NCBI RefSeq assembly: GCF_014137995.1
Contig: NZ_JACGWV010000003.1
Location: forward strand, 186,001 to 250,000
Source: Promicromonospora sukumoe
GTDB lineage: Bacteria; Actinomycetota; Actinomycetes; Actinomycetales; Cellulomonadaceae
Direction of reading: 5' to 3'
DNA: 64,000 nucleotides
The notes below the pieces were generated by a model, which searched no databases, was not told the origin of the DNA, and saw nothing but the letters and a program-made list of their open reading frames with translations. Of this stretch, positions 1-35,534 are shown in pieces. The translations under genes were made by a program, and so were the position numbers. How positions within the stretch are numbered: the first letter of the stretch is position 1; every line of letters begins with the position of its first letter.

Positions 1-1014
1 CACGCGGACCCGGCCGTCGGGCCCCGCGGCGTCGACCGCGTTGTCGATCAGGTTGCCCAGCACGACGAGGGCGTCGGTGTGCAGGGCGGAGGCGTCCGGC
101 GTCGTCGGCGCGTCCAGCGTGGTCTCCTCGGCGACGTCGAGCGTCGCGCCCCGCTCGCGCGCGGTGATGGTCTTGACCAGGAGCAGCGCGGCGATCTCGG
201 GGGAGCGCACGCCCGGCGCGACGGCGGACGTGCTGAGTAGCCCGCCGTAGCCCGAACGCTCGATGAACGCGACCGCCTCCTCGGTGCGGCCCAGCTCCAG
301 GAGGCCGGAGATGACGTGCACGGTGTTGGCGAACTCGTGCGACTGGGAGCGCAGGGCGTCCGTGAGCCCGCGGGTCTCCAGCAGGGTCGCGATGTCGTCG
401 GGTTCGAGCAGGTAGATCCGACGGCGGACCAGCCGGGTCACCCACGCCGCGCAGACCACCCCGACCACCGTCGCGGCGGCGAGCGTCCCCAGCAGCCAGC
501 CCCGTTCGTCGGTCAGATCGGCGCGCAGCTCGGACTCCAGGATGCCGACGCTGGCGGTGCCGATGACGGGGGCGGGGGAGGAGTCGTCGGCGGCGGAGCC
601 GAAGACGGGCACCTTGACCCGCCACGACGTGCCGAGCGTGCCGGTCTGCGTGCCGGTCCAGACCTGCCCGGACAGCGGCACCGACGGGTCGGTGGAGACC
701 CGCCGTCCGATCTGCTCCGGGTCGGGGTGGGAGTAGCGGACGCCGTTCTCGTCGGTGACCACCACGTACGTGACCTCGGAGGCCTCGCGGATCACCTCGG
801 CGATCGGCTGGATCGTCGCGGACGGGTCCTCGTCGTCGAACGCGTCGAGGATGACGGGCAGGCGCGCGACGGACTGCGCCACCCCGGACATCCGGTCGAC
901 GTAGGCCTCACGAAGCTGCCGCTCCTGAAGGGCGGAGGCCACCAGCCCGGTCGTGCACACGAGCACGAGCACGATGACGACCTGCAGCACCAGCAGCTGC
1001 GCCCGGAGCGTCAT
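1..1014 (-). CDS. CitA/DcuS-type sensor histidine kinase, partial (C-terminus off window)
   Basis: About 338 residues are visible and the gene runs off the left edge inside the ATPase domain. The start is the ATG at 1014-1012, preceded by GAGAAGAG. Seen: a transmembrane helix near residues 8-28 (LLVLQVVIVLVLV), an extracytoplasmic Cache/PAS-like domain with YVVVTDENGVRYSHPDPEQI, a second helix near 175-200, then the phospho-acceptor box SQSHEFANTVHVISGLLEL with His226, and the N-box region NLIDNAVDAAG. This H-box is typical of citrate/C4-dicarboxylate sensor kinases. The gene is divergent from the tctCBA operon, so it most likely senses the tricarboxylate and, with a response regulator beyond the window edge, controls that operon (inference). 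Odd: the linker EPDDIATLLETRG runs straight into the H-box, so the cytoplasmic PAS domain usual in this family is absent. Confidence 0.85.
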   Translation of the reverse strand, partial: MTLRAQLLVLQVVIVLVLVCTTGLVASALQERQLREAYVDRMSGVAQSVARLPVILDAFDDEDPSATIQPIAEVIREASEVTYVVVTDENGVRYSHPDPEQIGRRVSTDPSVPLSGQVWTGTQTGTLGTSWRVKVPVFGSAADDSSPAPVIGTASVGILESELRADLTDERGWLLGTLAAATVVGVVCAAWVTRLVRRRIYLLEPDDIATLLETRGLTDALRSQSHEFANTVHVISGLLELGRTEEAVAFIERSGYGGLLSTSAVAPGVRSPEIAALLLVKTITARERGATLDVAEETTLDAPTTPDASALHTDALVVLGNLIDNAVDAAGPDGRVRV

Positions 1015-2213: not shown

Positions 2214-2815
2214 GCGCCGACGGCGCGGCGCCCGCGGCGCCCGACCTCCCGGACACGCCGACGGCGGAGGCCGGCCCTCCGCCGCCGGGCGTCCCGGAAC
2301 CGGTGCCGGCCGAGCCGCCGCGCCGTCGGTGGGGCGAGCTCGTGCTCGCCCTGGCCACGACCGCGCTGGGCGCGTACGTGCTGGTCGCGGCCGGGAGCAT
2401 CATCGTCCCGGGCTCGACCAACACGCTGGGCCCGCGGGCCTTCCCGTACCTGGTGGGCGGCATGCTCGTCGCCGCGGGCCTCGTGCTGGTCGCGCTCGTC
2501 CTGACCGGCCGGGGCGGGCAGGAGGAGGGCGGCGAGGACGTCGACCCCACCATCCGTACCGACTGGCTGACGGTCGCGCTTCTCGCGGTCGTCCTCGTGG
2601 TGCACGTGTTCGCGATCAACGTCGTGGGCTGGCCGTTCGCCGCCGCGCTCCTGTTCGCGGGCGCCGCGGTGGTGCTGGGCGCGCGCCCGTGGTGGCGCGC
2701 CGCCCTGGTGGGTCTCGTACTGGGCCTGGTGATCCAGGTGATCTTCGGCGGGATGCTGGGGCTGTCGCTCCCGGCCGGCCCGCTGCTCGAAGGGGTGTCT
2801 TTCCTCCGTGGATAA
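2210..2815 (+). CDS. tctB: Tripartite tricarboxylate transporter small membrane subunit TctB
   Basis: 201 residues from a TTG at 2210 that overlaps the tctC stop codon (TTGA), a translationally coupled start. The longer open frame upstream lies inside tctC and is not used here. After a proline-rich N-terminal cytoplasmic tail (about 40 residues) come four predicted transmembrane segments with the typical TctB sequence STNTLGPRAFPYLVGG between the first two. TctB is the poorly conserved small membrane subunit that works with TctA and TctC. Its last codons overlap tctA by 8 bases, so all three subunits are likely made from one mRNA. The call rests on position and topology more than on motif strength. 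Confidence 0.85.
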   Translation: MSADGAAPAAPDLPDTPTAEAGPPPPGVPEPVPAEPPRRRWGELVLALATTALGAYVLVAAGSIIVPGSTNTLGPRAFPYLVGGMLVAAGLVLVALVLTGRGGQEEGGEDVDPTIRTDWLTVALLAVVLVVHVFAINVVGWPFAAALLFAGAAVVLGARPWWRAALVGLVLGLVIQVIFGGMLGLSLPAGPLLEGVSFLRG

Positions 2816-4310
2816 CTTCTCGGCGCTGATGGACGGGTTCGCCACCGTCCTGCATCCGATGTACCTGCTGTACGCGCTGTTCGGCGTGTTCGTCGGCACG
2901 GCGGTGGGTGTGCTGCCGGGCATCGGCCCGGCCATGGCGATCGCCCTGCTCCTGCCGCTCACGTACTCGCTGGACCCGACGGCGGCGATCATCGTCTTCG
3001 CCGGCATCTACTACGGCGGCATGTACGGCGGGTCGACGACGTCGATCCTGCTCAACACACCCGGTGAGTCCGCCTCGATCGTCACGGCGATCGAGGGCAA
3101 CAAGATGGCGCGCGCCGGGCGCGGGGCCGCTGCGCTGGCGACGGCTGCCATCGGCTCGTTCGTGGCCGGCTCGCTCGCCACCGTGGCGCTGACGTTCCTG
3201 GCGCCGGTGATCGCGCGCTGGGCGGTGCAGCTCAGCGAACCCGACTACTTCGCCCTCATGGTGGTCGCCTTCGTCACCGTGGGCGCGCTGCTCGGGTCCT
3301 CCGTGCCGCGCGGCCTCGCCGCGCTCGCCCTCGGCCTGTTCCTCGGCCTGGTCGGCACGGACACCCTCACCGGCCAGCAGCGGTTCACGTTCGGCGTGCC
3401 CAACCTCGCGGACGGCATCGACGTCGTCATCGTCGCCGTCGGCCTCTTCGCCGTCGGCGAGGCCCTGTACGTGGGCTCGCGGATGCGGCATGGACCGGTC
3501 CGGATCATCCCGGTCGAGAAGGGCTGGCGCACCTGGATGAAGCCCGACGACTGGCGCCGCTCCTGGAAGCCGTGGCTGCGCGGCGCCGCCATCGGGTTCC
3601 CCGTCGGCACCATCCCGGCCGGCGGCGCCGACGTCGCGACCTTCCTCTCCTACGCCACCGAGCGCCGGCTCGCCGGCCCGCGGCGCAAGCAGTTCGGCAA
3701 GGGCGCCATCGAGGGCGTGGCCGGACCCGAGGCCGCGAACAACGCCGCGGCGTCGGGCGTGCTGGTCCCGCTGCTCACCCTCGGCCTGCCCACGACGGCG
3801 ACCGCGGCGATCATCATCGTCGCGTTCCAGTCCTACGGCATCCAGCCCGGTCCGCTGCTCCTGCAGAACCAGTCGGCGCTGGTGTGGGCACTCATCGCCA
3901 GCCTCTACATCGGCAACATCATGCTGGTGGTGCTGAACCTCCCGCTCGTGGGCATGTGGGTCAAGGTGCTGCGCATCCCGCGGCACTACCTGTACGCGGG
4001 CATCCTCCTGTTCGGCGCGCTGGGCTCCTACGCGCTGAACTTCTCGCCCGTGGACGTGCTGATCCTGGTGCTCATCGGCCTGGCGGGGTTCTTCATGCGC
4101 CGGTACGGGTACCCCGTGGCGCCCCTGGTGGTCGGCATGATCCTCGGCCCGATGGCGGAGGACCGGCTGCGCCGCTCCCTCGCGATCAGCCAGGGCGACC
4201 TGACCTACCTGGTGACCAGCCCGTTCGCCGCGACCGCGTACATCGCCATCGTGGTGCTCCTGGTCGTCGGCATCTGGCTCAAGCGCCGGGAGCGGGCCGA
4301 GGAGGTCTGA
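2808..4310 (+). CDS. tctA: Tripartite tricarboxylate transporter large membrane subunit TctA
   Basis: 500 residues starting at a GTG inside the 3' end of tctB. This is the large permease subunit, with about 10-12 membrane segments. Clear TctA (DUF112) signatures are [20 protein letters not shown] near residues 35-54, [20 protein letters not shown] near 65-85, and [19 protein letters not shown] near 320-340. Length and motifs match full-length family members. The family couples citrate or other tricarboxylate/dicarboxylate uptake to an ion gradient, with TctC delivering substrate. It is the last gene of the operon; a new promoter for the SDR gene follows within 20 bases. Confidence 0.95.
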
Positions 4311-31845: not shown

Positions 31846-31969
31846 AACCCCAGCGAGGTAGAACTGCAGCGAGGTAGAACCGCGATGTACTGCGGTTCTA
31901 CCTCGCTGCAGTTCTACCTCGCCAGAGTTCTACTTCGCCCTGGTTCTATCTCGCCCTGGTTCTATCTCG
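31838..31969. repeat. Array of 16-bp units in inverted orientation (family A, copy 2)
   Basis: Two to three units of CGARRTAGAACYSCAG (31838, 31854, partial 31870) face five reverse units (31890, 31906, 31922, 31938, 31954), the last two identical (CCCTGGTTCTATCTCG). The TAG stop of GH3 (31843-31845) is in the first unit and the reverse-strand TAG stop of metZ (31962-31964) is in the last, so both convergent genes end inside the array. Confidence 0.85.
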
Positions 31970-33227
31970 TCGCCGCGAGGGCCTGCTCGACGTCCTCGAT
32001 GATGTCCCGGACGTCCTCCAGGCCCACCGACAGCCGCACGGTCGTCTCCGCGATGCCGACGGCGGCCCGTCCCGGCGCGCCCAGCTTGCGGTGCGTCGTC
32101 GTCGCCGGGTGCGTGACCAGGGACTTCGCGTCGCCGAGGTTGTTCGAGATGTCGACCAGCCGCAGGGCGTCGAGGAACGTGAACGTGTGCCGCTTCGCCG
32201 CGTCGTCGTCGGTGCCCTCGGGGACCGCCAGGTCGAACGTGACCACGGTGCCGCCGCCGCCCATCTGGCTGCGCGCCAGGTCGGCCTGCGGGTGGGAGTC
32301 CAGGAACGGGTAGCGCACGGTGCCCACCCCGGGGAGCTCCTCCAGGGCGTGCGCGACGGCGAGGGCGCTCGCGCTCTGGGCGGCGACCCGCACCGGCAGC
32401 GTCTCCAGGCCCTTGAGCAGGGTCCACGCGTTGAACGGCGAGAGCGACGGCCCCGTGTTGCGGATGAACGTCTGCACGGGCCCGGTGATGTAGTCGGTCG
32501 AGCCGAGGATCGCGCCGCCCAGCACGCGGCCCTGCCCGTCGATGTGCTTGGTCGCCGAGTAGACGACGACGTCGGCGCCGAGCTCCAGCGGCTTCTGCAG
32601 CAGCGGCGTCGCGAACACGTTGTCGAGCACCACGGTCGCCCCGGCGGCGTGCGCCAGGTCCACGACGGCGCGCACGTCCACGATGTCCTGCATCGGGTTG
32701 GACGGCGTCTCGAAGAACACCACGTCCGCGGGCGTGGCCAGGGCCTCCTCCCACTGGGAGAGCACGTGCCCGTCCACGTAGTCGGTGCGCACGCCCCACT
32801 TCTTGAAGATCTCCTCGAAGATCACCACGCTGGACCCGAACAGCGCCCGGGCCGCCACGATCCGCGAGCCCGACTCGACGAGCGCGGCCAGTGACGTGAA
32901 CACCGCCGACATGCCGGTCGCGGTCGCGTAGCAGGCGTCGGCGCCCTCGAGCTGGCGCAGCCGCTCCTCGAAGGTGTGCACCGTCGGGTTGCCGTAGCGC
33001 GAGTAGACGAACCGGTCGACGTCGCCCTTGAAGGCGGCCTCGGCCTCGGCGGCGTTGTCGTAGACGTAGCCCTGCGTGAGGAACAGCGCCTCGCTGGTCT
33101 CCTGGAACTCGCTGCGCTGGTGGCCGCCGCGCACGGCGAGGGTCGCCGGGCGGACGCCGTCGGGCAGGGGCTTGCGGCCGGAACCGCCCGGGTTCGCGTC
33201 GGGCGGGTACGCACCGGTGACGGTCAC
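31962..33227 (-). CDS. metZ: O-succinylhomoserine sulfhydrylase
   Basis: 421 residues from a GTG at 33227 that overlaps the rhodanese stop (GTGA). A longer open reading frame upstream overlaps the rhodanese and is not used. MetZ joins sulfide with O-succinyl (or O-acetyl) homoserine to make homocysteine, the direct-sulfhydrylation route to methionine. The PLP-dependent Cys/Met fold shows YSRYGNPTVHTFEERL, ATGMSAVFTSL, FFETPSNPMQD and the PLP lysine Lys227 in VVYSATKHIDGQG. The close family relation to MetB/MetC means acyl preference cannot be fixed by eye. The operon is preceded by a SAM-binding riboswitch, fitting a methionine gene. Confidence 0.92.
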   Translation of the reverse strand: MTVTGAYPPDANPGGSGRKPLPDGVRPATLAVRGGHQRSEFQETSEALFLTQGYVYDNAAEAEAAFKGDVDRFVYSRYGNPTVHTFEERLRQLEGADACYATATGMSAVFTSLAALVESGSRIVAARALFGSSVVIFEEIFKKWGVRTDYVDGHVLSQWEEALATPADVVFFETPSNPMQDIVDVRAVVDLAHAAGATVVLDNVFATPLLQKPLELGADVVVYSATKHIDGQGRVLGGAILGSTDYITGPVQTFIRNTGPSLSPFNAWTLLKGLETLPVRVAAQSASALAVAHALEELPGVGTVRYPFLDSHPQADLARSQMGGGGTVVTFDLAVPEGTDDDAAKRHTFTFLDALRLVDISNNLGDAKSLVTHPATTTHRKLGAPGRAAVGIAETTVRLSVGLEDVRDIIEDVEQALAATR

Positions 33228-33673
33228 GCGGGGCCCGCCGTCCACGGCAGGCCGGCGACCTTCCAGCCCTGCTGGTCGCGGACGCCGTCCACGCCGGGCG
33301 CGCCCTCGAAGCCCTCCAGCACGTTGTACGACGGCGCGATGCCGGACGACGTCGCGAGCCGCGCCGCGGCGATCGAGCGCTGGCCGGAGCGGCACAGGAA
33401 GACGATGGGCCCGTCGGAGACGCCGGCCGACCGGAGCTCCTCCAGGAACCGCGGGTTGGGCACGCCGCCGGCCTGCACCCACTCGGCGAACACGGGCTGC
33501 TTCTCCAGCGACGCGGTGTCCGGGATGCCGATCGCGCGCCACTCGCCCTCGGTGCGGACGTCCACCAGGGTGGCCGTCGGGTCGCCGGCGAGCAGGTCCC
33601 AGGCCTGCTGGGGCGTGATGTCACCGGCGTAGCCCTGGGCCGGCCGTGCCTCGATGCGCGCGGGGTCGCTCAT
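33224..33673 (-). CDS. Rhodanese-like sulfurtransferase domain protein
   Basis: 149 residues from the ATG at 33673, with GGAGGAG at 33684-33678. A single rhodanese domain with the active-site loop FLCRSGQRSIAAAR, where Cys95 or so carries the persulfide, and LVDVRTEGEWRAIGIPD near the N-terminus. Rhodaneses move sulfane sulfur or act as a sulfur carrier. It is the first gene of the rhodanese-metZ operon and overlaps metZ by four bases; the pairing suggests it handles sulfur for homocysteine synthesis (inference). Its ribosome site overlaps the 3' side of the riboswitch P1 stem. Confidence 0.92.
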   Translation of the reverse strand: MSDPARIEARPAQGYAGDITPQQAWDLLAGDPTATLVDVRTEGEWRAIGIPDTASLEKQPVFAEWVQAGGVPNPRFLEELRSAGVSDGPIVFLCRSGQRSIAAARLATSSGIAPSYNVLEGFEGAPGVDGVRDQQGWKVAGLPWTAGPA

Positions 33674-33682
33674 GATGCTCCT

Positions 33683-33785
33683 CCATCGGTCGTGGCGGTA
33701 GCACCCTCGTCCGTCCTCCGCTGCTGCGGGGAACGCTGGGTTGCTGCGGCGTCGTCGTGCCACGTCACTCGGCCGCTCGGGATGG
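33683..33785 (-). promoter_or_regulatory. SAM-I clan riboswitch before rhodanese-metZ
   Basis: Read on the reverse strand from 33785: CCATC, then CCGAGCGGCCGAGTGA, GCCGCAGCAACC, a P3-like hairpin region, and GGGTGCTACC, ending GATGG. CCATC/GATGG forms the closing P1 stem. These are the conserved SAM-I/S-box core blocks. The P4 hairpin usual in S-box RNAs appears to be missing, so it may be the SAM-I/IV variant. GATGG runs into GGAGGAG, so ligand-stabilised P1 would hide the ribosome site. Confidence 0.6.
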
Positions 33786-33970
33786 TCGCTGACAACCCTA
33801 CGACATGTGTCCGGTGGGTGGAACAGTGTCTCGACAGGCAACCCGACCAATCCGGTAGGGAAGCCGGTTCTCGCTCCGGTGACGACGATGCCAGGCCCCG
33901 ACCAGCAGGTGGGACCAGCATCTGAGACATGCGTTGACAGGGGTTTTGCCCGCAGCACAGGATGTCCGCA

Positions 33971-34084
33971 GGTCATGAGTGCCAGCGTCAAGCCCCGGCT
34001 CGCTGGCCGGCAACCCTCCCTCCGCGGTGGGGTGCCCCGGGTGACGACCAGGCCGTGCGCACCCGCGTGCGGCAAGCGCGGGGG
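33971..34084 (+). promoter_or_regulatory. SAM-IV riboswitch before the class V aminotransferase
   Basis: GGTCATGAGTGCCAGCGTCA, CCCCGGCTCGCTGGCCGGCA, ACCCTCC, GGTGGGGTGCCCCGGGTGAC and GACCAGG are followed by a hairpin and GGCAAGCGCGGG. This matches the actinobacterial SAM-IV aptamer, including the well-known mycobacterial sequence, almost base for base in the core. After the aptamer, GGGGG-AACCT-CCCCC (34080-34095) can form, while the CCTCC in it can instead pair with the GGAGG ribosome site at 34106-34110, a plausible switch. Confidence 0.9.
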
Positions 34085-34115
34085 AACCTCCCCCAGGACT
34101 GTGCTGGAGGACGCC

Positions 34116-35534
34116 ATGTCTGCTCCCACTCTCAGCCGTGCCACCGCGGTGACCGACCTCGCCCCGCTGCGCCCCGTCGTCGGCGGCGGCACGCTCGTCC
34201 CGCTCGTGGACGGCACCCAGGTCTCGTACGCGAACCTCGACGTCGCCGCGTCCGCCCCGGCCCTGCAGGCCGTCGCCGACCGCGTCACCCAGGTGCTGCC
34301 CCTGTACGCCAGCGTGCACCGCGGCGCGGGCTACCTCTCCCAGGTGAGCACGGCGCTCTACGAGACCGCCCGGCGCACCATCGGGGCCTTCGTCGGCGCC
34401 CGCGAGGACGACCTGACGATCATCACCCGGAACACCACCGACTCCCTCAACCTCCTCGCCGGCTGCGTCCCCGCGCAGGCCGACGGCGAGCCCGGCCGCG
34501 TGCTGGTGCTCGACGTCGAGCACCACGCGAACCTGCTGCCCTGGCAGCGCACCACCGGCGCGACCGTGCTGACCGGCGGCGCGACCGTCGCCGAGACCGT
34601 CGCCCAGATCCGGGAGGAGCTGGCCGACGCCGCGGAGGACCGGCCGTACGCCCTCCTGGCCCTGACCGGCGCGTCGAACGTGACGGGGGAGTCCCTCCCG
34701 ATCGGCGAGATCGTCGCCGTCGCCCACGAGTTCGGGACGCGCGTCGCGCTCGACGGCGCCCAGCTCGTGCCGCACCGCCGCATCTCCCTGGAGTCCACCG
34801 GCGTGGACTACCTCGCCTTCTCCGGGCACAAGACCTACGCCCCGTTCGGCGCCGGCGTGCTGGTGGGCCGCCGCGACTGGCTCGACGCCGGCACGCCGTA
34901 CCTCGCGGGCGGCGGCGCCGTCCGGCGGGTGCGCGTCGGCGGCACCGACTGGCACGAGGGGCCCGCCCGCCACGAGGCCGGCTCGCCCAACGTCATCGGC
35001 GCCGTCGCGCTCGCCGCGGCCTGCGAGGAGCTGGCCGCGCTGGACGCGGCCGAGGTCGTCGCCCACGAGAACACGCTTCGCCGCCGGCTCGTGTCGGGGC
35101 TCGAGGCGATCGACCGCGTCGAGGTCGTGCGGGTCTGGGCCGACGCCGTCGACCCGGTCGGCGTCGTCACCTTCACCGTGACCGGGTACGACCCGGGCCT
35201 CGTCGCCGCCTACCTGTCCGCGGAGCACGGCATCGGCGTGCGCGACGGCCGCTTCTGCGCGCACCCGCTGCTCGGCCGGCTCGGCTTCGACGCCGGGGCC
35301 GTGCGTGCCTCGGTCGGCGTCGGCACCGCGGGCGAGGAGATCGAGCGCCTGATCGCCGCCGTCGGCAGCCTGGTCGAGGACGGCCCGCAGGCCGGGTACG
35401 ACGTCGTCGACGGGCTGTGGGTCGTGATCGACGACCCGCGTCCTGTGCCCGAGGGCTCCGGCCTGGCGGGCCTGCTCGCGACGGCCGCCCTGGGCTTCGA
35501 CGAGGCCTTCGGCTGCCTCCCCGACGAGGACTGA
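34116..35534 (+). CDS. Class V aminotransferase / cysteine desulfurase-like protein
   Basis: 472 residues from the ATG at 34116 with GGAGG upstream; a longer reading to 33741 would cover the riboswitch. The PLP fold is clear: TTDSLNLLAGC, VEHHANLLPWQR, LTGASNVTGE, ALDGAQLVPH and the PLP lysine Lys239 in FSGHKTYAPFGAG. The C-terminus adds GIGVRDGRFCAHPLLGRLG, where a cysteine lies in a loop placed like that of cysteine desulfurases (SufS/CsdA type). The enzyme may release sulfur from cysteine or a related compound; control by SAM-IV ties it to methionine/sulfur metabolism. Exact substrate uncertain. Confidence 0.88.
   Translation: MSAPTLSRATAVTDLAPLRPVVGGGTLVPLVDGTQVSYANLDVAASAPALQAVADRVTQVLPLYASVHRGAGYLSQVSTALYETARRTIGAFVGAREDDLTIITRNTTDSLNLLAGCVPAQADGEPGRVLVLDVEHHANLLPWQRTTGATVLTGGATVAETVAQIREELADAAEDRPYALLALTGASNVTGESLPIGEIVAVAHEFGTRVALDGAQLVPHRRISLESTGVDYLAFSGHKTYAPFGAGVLVGRRDWLDAGTPYLAGGGAVRRVRVGGTDWHEGPARHEAGSPNVIGAVALAAACEELAALDAAEVVAHENTLRRRLVSGLEAIDRVEVVRVWADAVDPVGVVTFTVTGYDPGLVAAYLSAEHGIGVRDGRFCAHPLLGRLGFDAGAVRASVGVGTAGEEIERLIAAVGSLVEDGPQAGYDVVDGLWVVIDDPRPVPEGSGLAGLLATAALGFDEAFGCLPDED

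Follow-up and report, generated by a model that had tools for sequence, protein, structure and literature searches.

Divergent SAM-I-type and SAM-IV leaders between rhodanese-metZ and a class V aminotransferase gene in Promicromonospora sukumoe

In Streptomyces lividans, a SAM-IV element precedes a cysteine desulfurase gene and a separate SAM-I element precedes threonine genes, according to the accessible part of PMC8079986. Two SAM riboswitch classes in tandem, such as SAM-II/SAM-V, have been described on one transcript (PMC9481103, in excerpt). By the published class marks, as given in the available sections of the sources, SAM-I has P4, a kink-turn and no second pseudoknot, as well as a uridine at position 121 in the numbering of the same paper (PMC7270179); SAM-IV lacks P4 but carries PK-2 and P5, while SAM-I/IV lacks PK-1 (PMC6890682), and SAM-I/IV variants without the P2 internal loop are known (PMC2864571). 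A form of SAM-I with the ribosome site in the 3′ strand of P1 has also been described (PMC2258182).

Here, a stretch of 64,000 nucleotides from Promicromonospora sukumoe (the window) was analysed, in which a SAM-IV aptamer and a SAM-I-type element are found in one divergent intergenic region. The observation as a whole is real, conserved and mostly ordinary in mechanism, and each half appears to work in an already known way.

Two SAM-clan elements in one divergent region

A cmscan of positions 33000-34800 returned a full SAM-IV aptamer on the forward strand (RF00634, 106.6 bits, E 3.4e-20, cutoff 38 bits) at 33971-34084, exactly where an earlier reading of the letters (the sequence-only reading) had placed it. 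On the reverse strand, RF00162 matched 33788-33680 with 41.4 bits (E 1.5e-7); the match extends 3 nt beyond either end of the SAM-I clan element proposed at 33785-33683. This is 3 bits short of the Rfam gathering score of 44.4, which leaves the element outside RF00162 by score. Since it lies just below that value, a default Rfam scan shows SAM-IV alone, and SAM-IV was the only element listed for the whole window at gathering cutoffs. The sequence-only reading had staked the pair on more than one significant cmscan hit; the outcome hangs on the threshold, with both elements significant by E-value and one at the gathering score, and the relatives decide for both. The reverse element is no chance match: a P4-less SAM-I model, built from 18 sequences of this genome and related genomes, detects it in 74 of 80 relative loci with a weakest match of 78.9 bits, the window itself being among the training sequences and some of the 80 loci possibly being the same genomes. 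A mir-9318 match (E 0.96) and an RF00162 match at C1:853289 (E 0.06, amid overlapping ORFs) were dismissed as chance.

Two SAM-clan classes had been read as divergent leaders of rhodanese-metZ and a class V aminotransferase gene, within 440 bp. Both cmscan and the gene profiles (Table 1) agree with this, and the start codons (33673, reverse; 34116, forward) are 443 bp apart. The likely GTG start of metZ overlaps the rhodanese stop (GTGA). The nearest family of the forward protein is SufS, yet the score is under the cutoff of that family. All 14 aligned sequences, that of the window among them, have Cys381, which lies at what we take to be the position where cysteine desulfurases carry their catalytic cysteine. 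The enzyme roles of both arms are putative.

Table 1. Coordinates of the features in the window
Feature	Position	Strand	Basis
metZ, O-succinylhomoserine sulfhydrylase	31962..33227	-	NCBIfam NF005870, 726.4 bits, above cutoff 618; codons
Rhodanese-domain protein, 149 aa	33224..33673	-	Pfam PF00581, 34.8 bits; start and stop codons
Shine-Dalgarno GGAGGAG of rhodanese	33678..33684	-	sequence
P4-less SAM-I-type aptamer: P1, P2a/P2b with kink-turn G-A pairs, PK-1, P3	33680..33788	-	RF00162, 41.4 bits; 74/80 relatives; covariation
P1 3′ strand GAUGG, last GG opens Shine-Dalgarno	33683..33687	-	sequence; GATGGAGG 52/75 rows, GATGGGAG 16/75 rows
PK-1 3′ strand CCACG	33691..33695	-	just ACC between PK-1 strand and P1
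PK-1 5′ strand CGUGG in loop L2	33760..33764	-	pairs with 33691-33695; covariation
P1 5′ strand CCAUC	33781..33785	-	pairs with 33683-33687; 99.7% of cells paired, 68 distinct rows
Reverse promoter candidate: -10-like TAGGGT, ~6 nt before aptamer	33795..33800	-	alignment of relatives
Conserved GAGAC motif upstream of forward -35	33924..33928	+	41/50 distinct short intergenic regions
Forward promoter candidate: TTGACA, 18 nt, CAGGAT; 7 nt to aptamer	33934..33963	+	alignment of relatives
SAM-IV aptamer	33971..34084	+	RF00634, 106.6 bits; 80/80 relatives; PK-1 and PK-2 paired
PK-2 5′ strand CCGC in L3	34022..34025	+	alignment and sequence
Predicted anti-anti-SD hairpin (CGCGGGGG...CUCCCCC), exclusive with PK-2	34077..34094	+	tail folded with and without PK-2
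PK-2 3′ strand GCGG, also in foot of competing downstream hairpin	34078..34081	+	alignment, fold, sequence
Anti-Shine-Dalgarno CCUCC	34087..34091	+	predicted pairing with GGAGG 34106-34110 when PK-2 strand taken
Shine-Dalgarno GGAGG of forward gene	34106..34110	+	sequence
Class V aminotransferase, SufS-family-like (cysteine desulfurase?), 472 aa	34116..35534	+	TIGR01979, 284.7 bits, below cutoff 475.1; PF00266

In a 16-row alignment of the forward element, 97.3% of the cells are paired (PK-1 100%, PK-2 96.9%, P5 89.5%) and there is no P4. Since PK-1 of SAM-IV never varies, it draws no support from covariation. In 61 of 79 distinct regions upstream of SAM-IV, the first hexamer that fits best is TTGACA. 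SAM-I is preceded by a -10-like hexamer, with no common -35 found in the upstream regions of relatives. A stricter consensus scan found neither promoter candidate, and the promoter claim rests on the alignment of relatives.

Structure and class of the reverse element

The reverse element was aligned with relatives in 18 rows and then, by the model, in 75 rows, 68 of them distinct. The P3 core is GCAACC/GGUGC in both alignments, the kink-turn in P2 is found at the sequence level (all 18 rows have G19 A20 and G36 A37) and the core columns are invariant. P4, which the sequence-only reading had already found missing, is absent in 18/18 and 75/75 rows; about 3 nt separate PK-1 from P1, and since in the window these are ACC alone, there is no P4. 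Nor is there a PK-2: the Shine-Dalgarno and the start codon come straight after P1, with 9 nt from P1 to the start codon.

Conservation of the pairs was evaluated on the 68 distinct rows. As many as 99.5% of 1696 cells pair, and both partners have changed at 8 of 25 pairs. Covariation scores 0.113, against 0.045 for shuffles and no more than 0.019 for slid controls; none of 500 shuffles scored as high. No other position gives as strong a signal as the second pair of PK-1 (33 rows with G-C, 27 with C-G, 1 with G-U, 5 unpaired and 2 gapped). Nested pairs guided the fitting of the alignment, with PK-1 outside the model, and PK-1 pairs in 98.5% of cells with double changes at 3 of its 5 pairs. One P2b pair is U-A in 42 rows and A-U in 26. 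Much of this variation seems to split by clade, which means fewer events than cells.

Given the published class marks, with PK-1 and kink-turn present and neither PK-2 nor P4, the element is to be classed from its sequence as SAM-I minus P4, a P4-less SAM-I-type variant rather than a plain member, and not as SAM-I/IV. The sequence-only reading had suggested a SAM-I/IV intermediate, which would fit the loss of the SAM-I P4, as in SAM-IV. However, PK-1, absent from SAM-I/IV in the available text of PMC6890682, is present and covarying here, the P2 internal loop is kept, unlike in the SAM-I/IV variants of PMC2864571 (as excerpted), and no space is left for PK-2 or P5. In addition, a whole-genome search with E up to 1 gave no RF01725 match at the reverse element, the single match in the genome (E 0.39) lying elsewhere. 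The intermediate was rejected on the RF01725 null and the PK-1 covariation, and we regard it as highly improbable.

Loss of function in a decaying SAM-I riboswitch would explain both the missing P4 and the score under the gathering cutoff, but the core columns are invariant, the pairs are upheld by double changes, the element is found at 74 of 80 loci, and the same P4-less form precedes metE-like and metF-like genes in the same genome. On this conservation and covariation, decay was rejected as very unlikely. Neither is a change of ligand probable, being hardly more than conceivable: spermidine variants of SAM-I exist, but their J1/2 and P3 internal loop are altered and they sit with polyamine genes, according to the part of PMC10853860 available, whereas here the P3 core, the part compared, fits the SAM consensus and the associated genes are rhodanese, metZ, metF and similar. 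SAM binding by both elements, the P4-less SAM-I-type one and SAM-IV, is presumed. Free folding of the reverse leader gave a best structure that did not show the whole aptamer and was no more stable than shuffles (z -0.14), which is not decisive, since a pseudoknotted, ligand-dependent core need not appear in a free fold.

The P4-less form was also found elsewhere. Both other SAM-I elements of this genome lack P4; one precedes a metE-like gene (by eye) and the other a metF-like gene (TIGR00676, 232.9 bits, below the cutoff of 293.7). Among 198 Actinomycetota genomes, the P4-less model matches 72 and RF00634 matches 19. Pairing of P1 in the P4-less register was passed by 26 of 31 loci (29 from the phylum scan and 2 from this genome), in a simple test whose weaker passes may be misread; one locus (L140) that by eye seems to have P4 also passed. 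The genes behind the clearest P4-less loci (L124-L136) include, by eye, threonine synthase and homocysteine-methyltransferase-like genes, with threonine synthase checked on L134. Several of these loci score well above the Rfam cutoff, e.g., 78.8 bits for L134, and a missing P4 alone was rejected as the cause of the low Rfam score. At 13 related loci scanned, 12 have the reverse element and 6 of these 12 reach the Rfam cutoff; in this family, the cutoff thus misses about half of the P4-less elements. In another family of the class, one locus (L132, genome G107) carries a relative of the desulfurase-like gene with SAM-IV and, 164 bp from it and divergent, a P4-less SAM-I, which here precedes another gene, by eye an oxygenase-like ORF.

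Expression platforms and proposed mechanism

The sequence-only reading had noted that P1 of the SAM-I element runs into GGAGGAG, and this was confirmed, the P1 3′ strand GAUGG holding the first GG of the Shine-Dalgarno. The junction reads GATGGAGG or GATGGGAG in 68 of 75 rows and deviates in the other 7, and an ATG- or GTG-like triplet in any frame is found 9-22 nt past the start of GATG in 70 of 74 reverse leaders. Since P1 has only 5 bp and the AGGAG that follows stays unpaired, occlusion of the Shine-Dalgarno may be partial. At two Luteimicrobium loci (L073 and L078), what by eye seems to be a GC-rich hairpin comes right after the SAM-I P1, followed by the Shine-Dalgarno, which would be a different platform.

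For the forward arm, it had been proposed that the SAM-IV platform can hide GGAGG, and the predicted pairing of the CCUCC strand with the Shine-Dalgarno agrees with this. Two pairings are open to the SAM-IV tail GCGCGGGG, one within PK-2 and one with a C-run further downstream; the Shine-Dalgarno is a possible partner of that C-run as well. Tails were taken from the 80 loci and the window (81 in total); 10 had no Shine-Dalgarno and start by the rule used, 67 were distinct and 64 remained after the length filter. When these 64 were folded to the start codon, the mean Shine-Dalgarno pairing rose from 0.51 to 0.76 once the PK-2 strand was taken, compared with 0.56 to 0.67 for shuffled linkers. 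The gain was above 0.2 in 33 of 64 tails and below -0.2 in none, and in the window, pairing rose from 0.17 to 0.83. Pairing of the PK-2 strand with downstream sequence was not above shuffles (0.69 versus 0.64, p 0.1; the platform p-values treat related sequences as independent). The result depends on the end point of the fold: it is clearer when folding to the start codon, while with 15 nt of coding sequence added, the shift is small (mean unpaired Shine-Dalgarno 0.28 to 0.24) and the window is reversed (0.06 to 0.16). With results on both sides, the modelling supports a hidden Shine-Dalgarno in the SAM-IV arm without amounting to proof. Both arms look translational, as the sequence-only reading had it, in that P1 overlaps one Shine-Dalgarno and a tail exchange is predicted at the other; this concerns the look of the platforms only.

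The SAM-IV arm, perhaps both, might act mainly by premature transcription termination instead of hiding the ribosome site. In Streptomyces clavuligerus, a premature transcript end is described for an aminotransferase class V gene whose leader is a predicted SAM-IV (PMC8269248, accessible portion), which points to transcriptional control in that organism, and GC-rich inverted repeats are seen by eye after SAM-IV at many loci. However, scanning 33600-34200 for promoters and terminators turned up no U-tract terminator-like site, only 9 nt run from P1 to the start codon in the reverse leader, and the anti-Shine-Dalgarno strand is predicted to pair with the Shine-Dalgarno when PK-2 forms. Termination as the main mode is considered unlikely.

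The translational mechanism proposed is that each of two divergent sulfur operons would begin with a SAM-sensing OFF switch of its own. On the reverse side, SAM would stabilise the 5-bp P1 of the P4-less aptamer, whose 3′ strand holds the first GG of the Shine-Dalgarno GGAGG, and the ribosome would be blocked from the rhodanese start; metZ, overlapping rhodanese at the GTGA junction, would fall along with it. In the forward leader, SAM would stabilise SAM-IV with PK-2, which would take the foot of the downstream hairpin, and the freed C-rich strand could then pair with the Shine-Dalgarno of the desulfurase-like gene. Without PK-2, the downstream hairpin would free that Shine-Dalgarno. High SAM would lower homocysteine synthesis and sulfur mobilisation together, and the adjacency of the arms would be inherited gene order. 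We consider this explanation as a whole probable. It builds on both aptamers, their conserved pairs and the P1/Shine-Dalgarno overlap, all directly seen, along with the exchange predicted on the SAM-IV side; translational repression and the coupling of metZ are inferred.

Conservation, adjacency and comparison with known systems

A scan of genomes with the forward-protein alignment matched at least 590 stretches, at least 400 of which encode a relative, and the best 80 were used, Promicromonospora first. This list is biased to near relatives, and since it includes close relatives and one genome twice (L103 = L106), counts are not independent events. Among these best 80 of at least 400 loci, SAM-IV lies upstream of the forward gene in all 80 and a P4-less SAM-I is divergent to it in 74. 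The six loci without the reverse element are four of Nocardioides, a Micrococcales MAG (L122) and L112, whose sequence ends 935 bp upstream of SAM-IV. Rhodanese was matched at 74 of 74 pair loci and metZ at 73, L102 being cut off by a contig end. In a first DNA search, 49 of 59 relatives were matched by any part of the region.

In 26 evenly sampled genomes of the family, the SAM-I model matched in 24 and SAM-IV in 25, and a divergent pair within 3.4 kb was found from coordinates in 20. Both RNAs are present but apart in G013 (360 contigs, on different contigs), G016, G017 and G036; G019 has SAM-IV only and G033 neither. The arrangement had been called unusual; within the family it is the rule (74 of the best 80 loci, 20 of 26 genomes), and the word needs qualifying to that extent.

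The gap between the elements is 83-188 bp in 50 of the 74 pairs, 47 of which fall within 97-160 bp, and such constancy would be expected if adjacency were itself functional, with a shared promoter geometry or a shared transcription factor coupling the arms. The GAGAC motif, which 41 of 50 distinct short gaps contain, 37 times at 55-58 nt before SAM-IV, and which also lies 65 bp upstream of another SAM-IV of this genome, speaks for the same view. In those 50 gaps, its reverse complement GTCTC (33828-33832 in the window) is found in 18, with 14 occurrences 43-45 nt before SAM-I, and CGAGAC occurs in 27 gaps versus 2.5 in mononucleotide shuffles. GAGAC may be a transcription-factor site, possibly of an unknown sulfur regulator. 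Genome-wide, a GAGAC-TTGAC pattern, whose spacing omits the window's own site, was found at 3 places, one of them upstream of SAM-IV, which is a lead, no regulon. However, 24 of 74 pairs are 270-3369 bp apart, 21 of them at 700 bp or more, with both elements kept, and in 4 of the 24 sampled genomes with both RNAs, one of them in 360 contigs, the RNAs are apart. Functional adjacency is accordingly given a low probability. Since both elements persist at separations of 0.7-3.4 kb in 21 of 74 pairs, adjacency is probably inherited gene order.

Other arrangements were observed at single loci. The Micrococcales MAG (L122) has SAM-IV at 717-830 (-) and at 2739-2852 (+), back to back and about 1.9 kb apart, the reverse one preceding a small cupin-like ORF (cysteine-dioxygenase-like by eye). 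L043 (genome G041) shows two tandem SAM-IV-like stretches (1330-1394 and 1501-1614) 106 bp apart, the first matched by BLAST only partly. After some SAM-IV elements, a short reading frame is made up of clustered cysteines or closes with them (MCCHCSCR in L012, 4451-4777; TGC-TGC-TGT or similar in L201 and L208, just after SAM-IV). Cysteine-responsive leader peptides with clustered cysteines occur in mycobacteria, and by analogy these frames suggest SAM-IV and a cysteine attenuator in tandem.

The genes behind each class were classified in the family sample. For SAM-I, 28 newly fetched loci of at least 47 matches gave rhodanese-metZ in 17, metF in 10 and neither in 1 (L171, acyl-CoA-dehydrogenase-like by eye), i.e., methionine-synthesis genes at 27 of 28. 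For SAM-IV, 28 loci of at least 53 matches gave the desulfurase-like gene in 19, an LLM monooxygenase in 3 and no match to the labelled set in 6, with a doubtful reading frame chosen for L196; one of these 6 resembles the FMN reductase SsuE (below cutoff); by eye, the remaining 5 are mostly transporter- or monooxygenase-like. In the genome of P. sukumoe, an alkanesulfonate-monooxygenase-like gene (below cutoff) likewise has SAM-IV in front of it, as does an LLM gene; the latter is followed by a Cys/Met-enzyme gene whose alignment to metZ gives 38% and which is read from its sequence as a putative metY. The classes thus largely divide labour, SAM-I on methionine synthesis and SAM-IV on the desulfurase-like gene and mostly sulfur-acquisition-like genes, with an imperfect split given the SAM-IV before the LLM and metY-like genes.

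A wider proposal is that the minimal SAM-clan aptamer, with PK-1 only and neither P4 nor PK-2, is a distinct Actinomycetota-wide subtype partly below the Rfam cutoff, and that it is kept with SAM-IV in one family because each class responds to a SAM level of its own, with SAM-I acting on methionine synthesis and SAM-IV on sulfur acquisition and mobilisation. We advance it tentatively, as possible rather than probable. The P4-less form would show how little of SAM-I suffices. Why two RNA architectures serve one ligand in one cell could be tested in one organism with two leaders, since both classes occur at one locus, conserved over many genera and largely split by pathway.

The literature searched, with subscription papers mostly outside its scope, gave no description of a divergent SAM-I/SAM-IV pair or of a P4-less SAM-I subtype, which is weak evidence of absence; the available text of PMC9481103 mentions 'SAM-IV' a single time, in its reference list, and never uses 'divergent'. 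The points of interest are the P4-less SAM-I form, about half of whose members in the family the Rfam cutoff misses, and the two classes, largely split by pathway, at one locus. The forward element has PK-1, PK-2 and P5 and is a complete member of RF00634, with no aptamer difference found, while the platform proposed here, PK-2 versus an anti-anti-SD hairpin, is putative. The reverse element shares with SAM-I (S-box, RF00162) the P1-P2-P3 core, the kink-turn G-A pairs, PK-1, the GCAACC/GGUGC core and the ribosome site within the P1 3′ strand (PMC2258182), and differs in having no P4, 3 nt linking PK-1 to P1 and a score under the gathering value. As in S. lividans, both classes occur in one actinobacterial genome and SAM-IV is on the same kind of gene, whereas there, by the accessible coordinates, the elements are more than 2 Mb apart (6,033,447 and 3,785,632) and form no divergent pair (PMC8079986). 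As with the SAM-II/SAM-V tandem in the excerpt of PMC9481103, two SAM classes meet at one locus; that tandem lies on one transcript, whereas here two divergent leaders head two operons.
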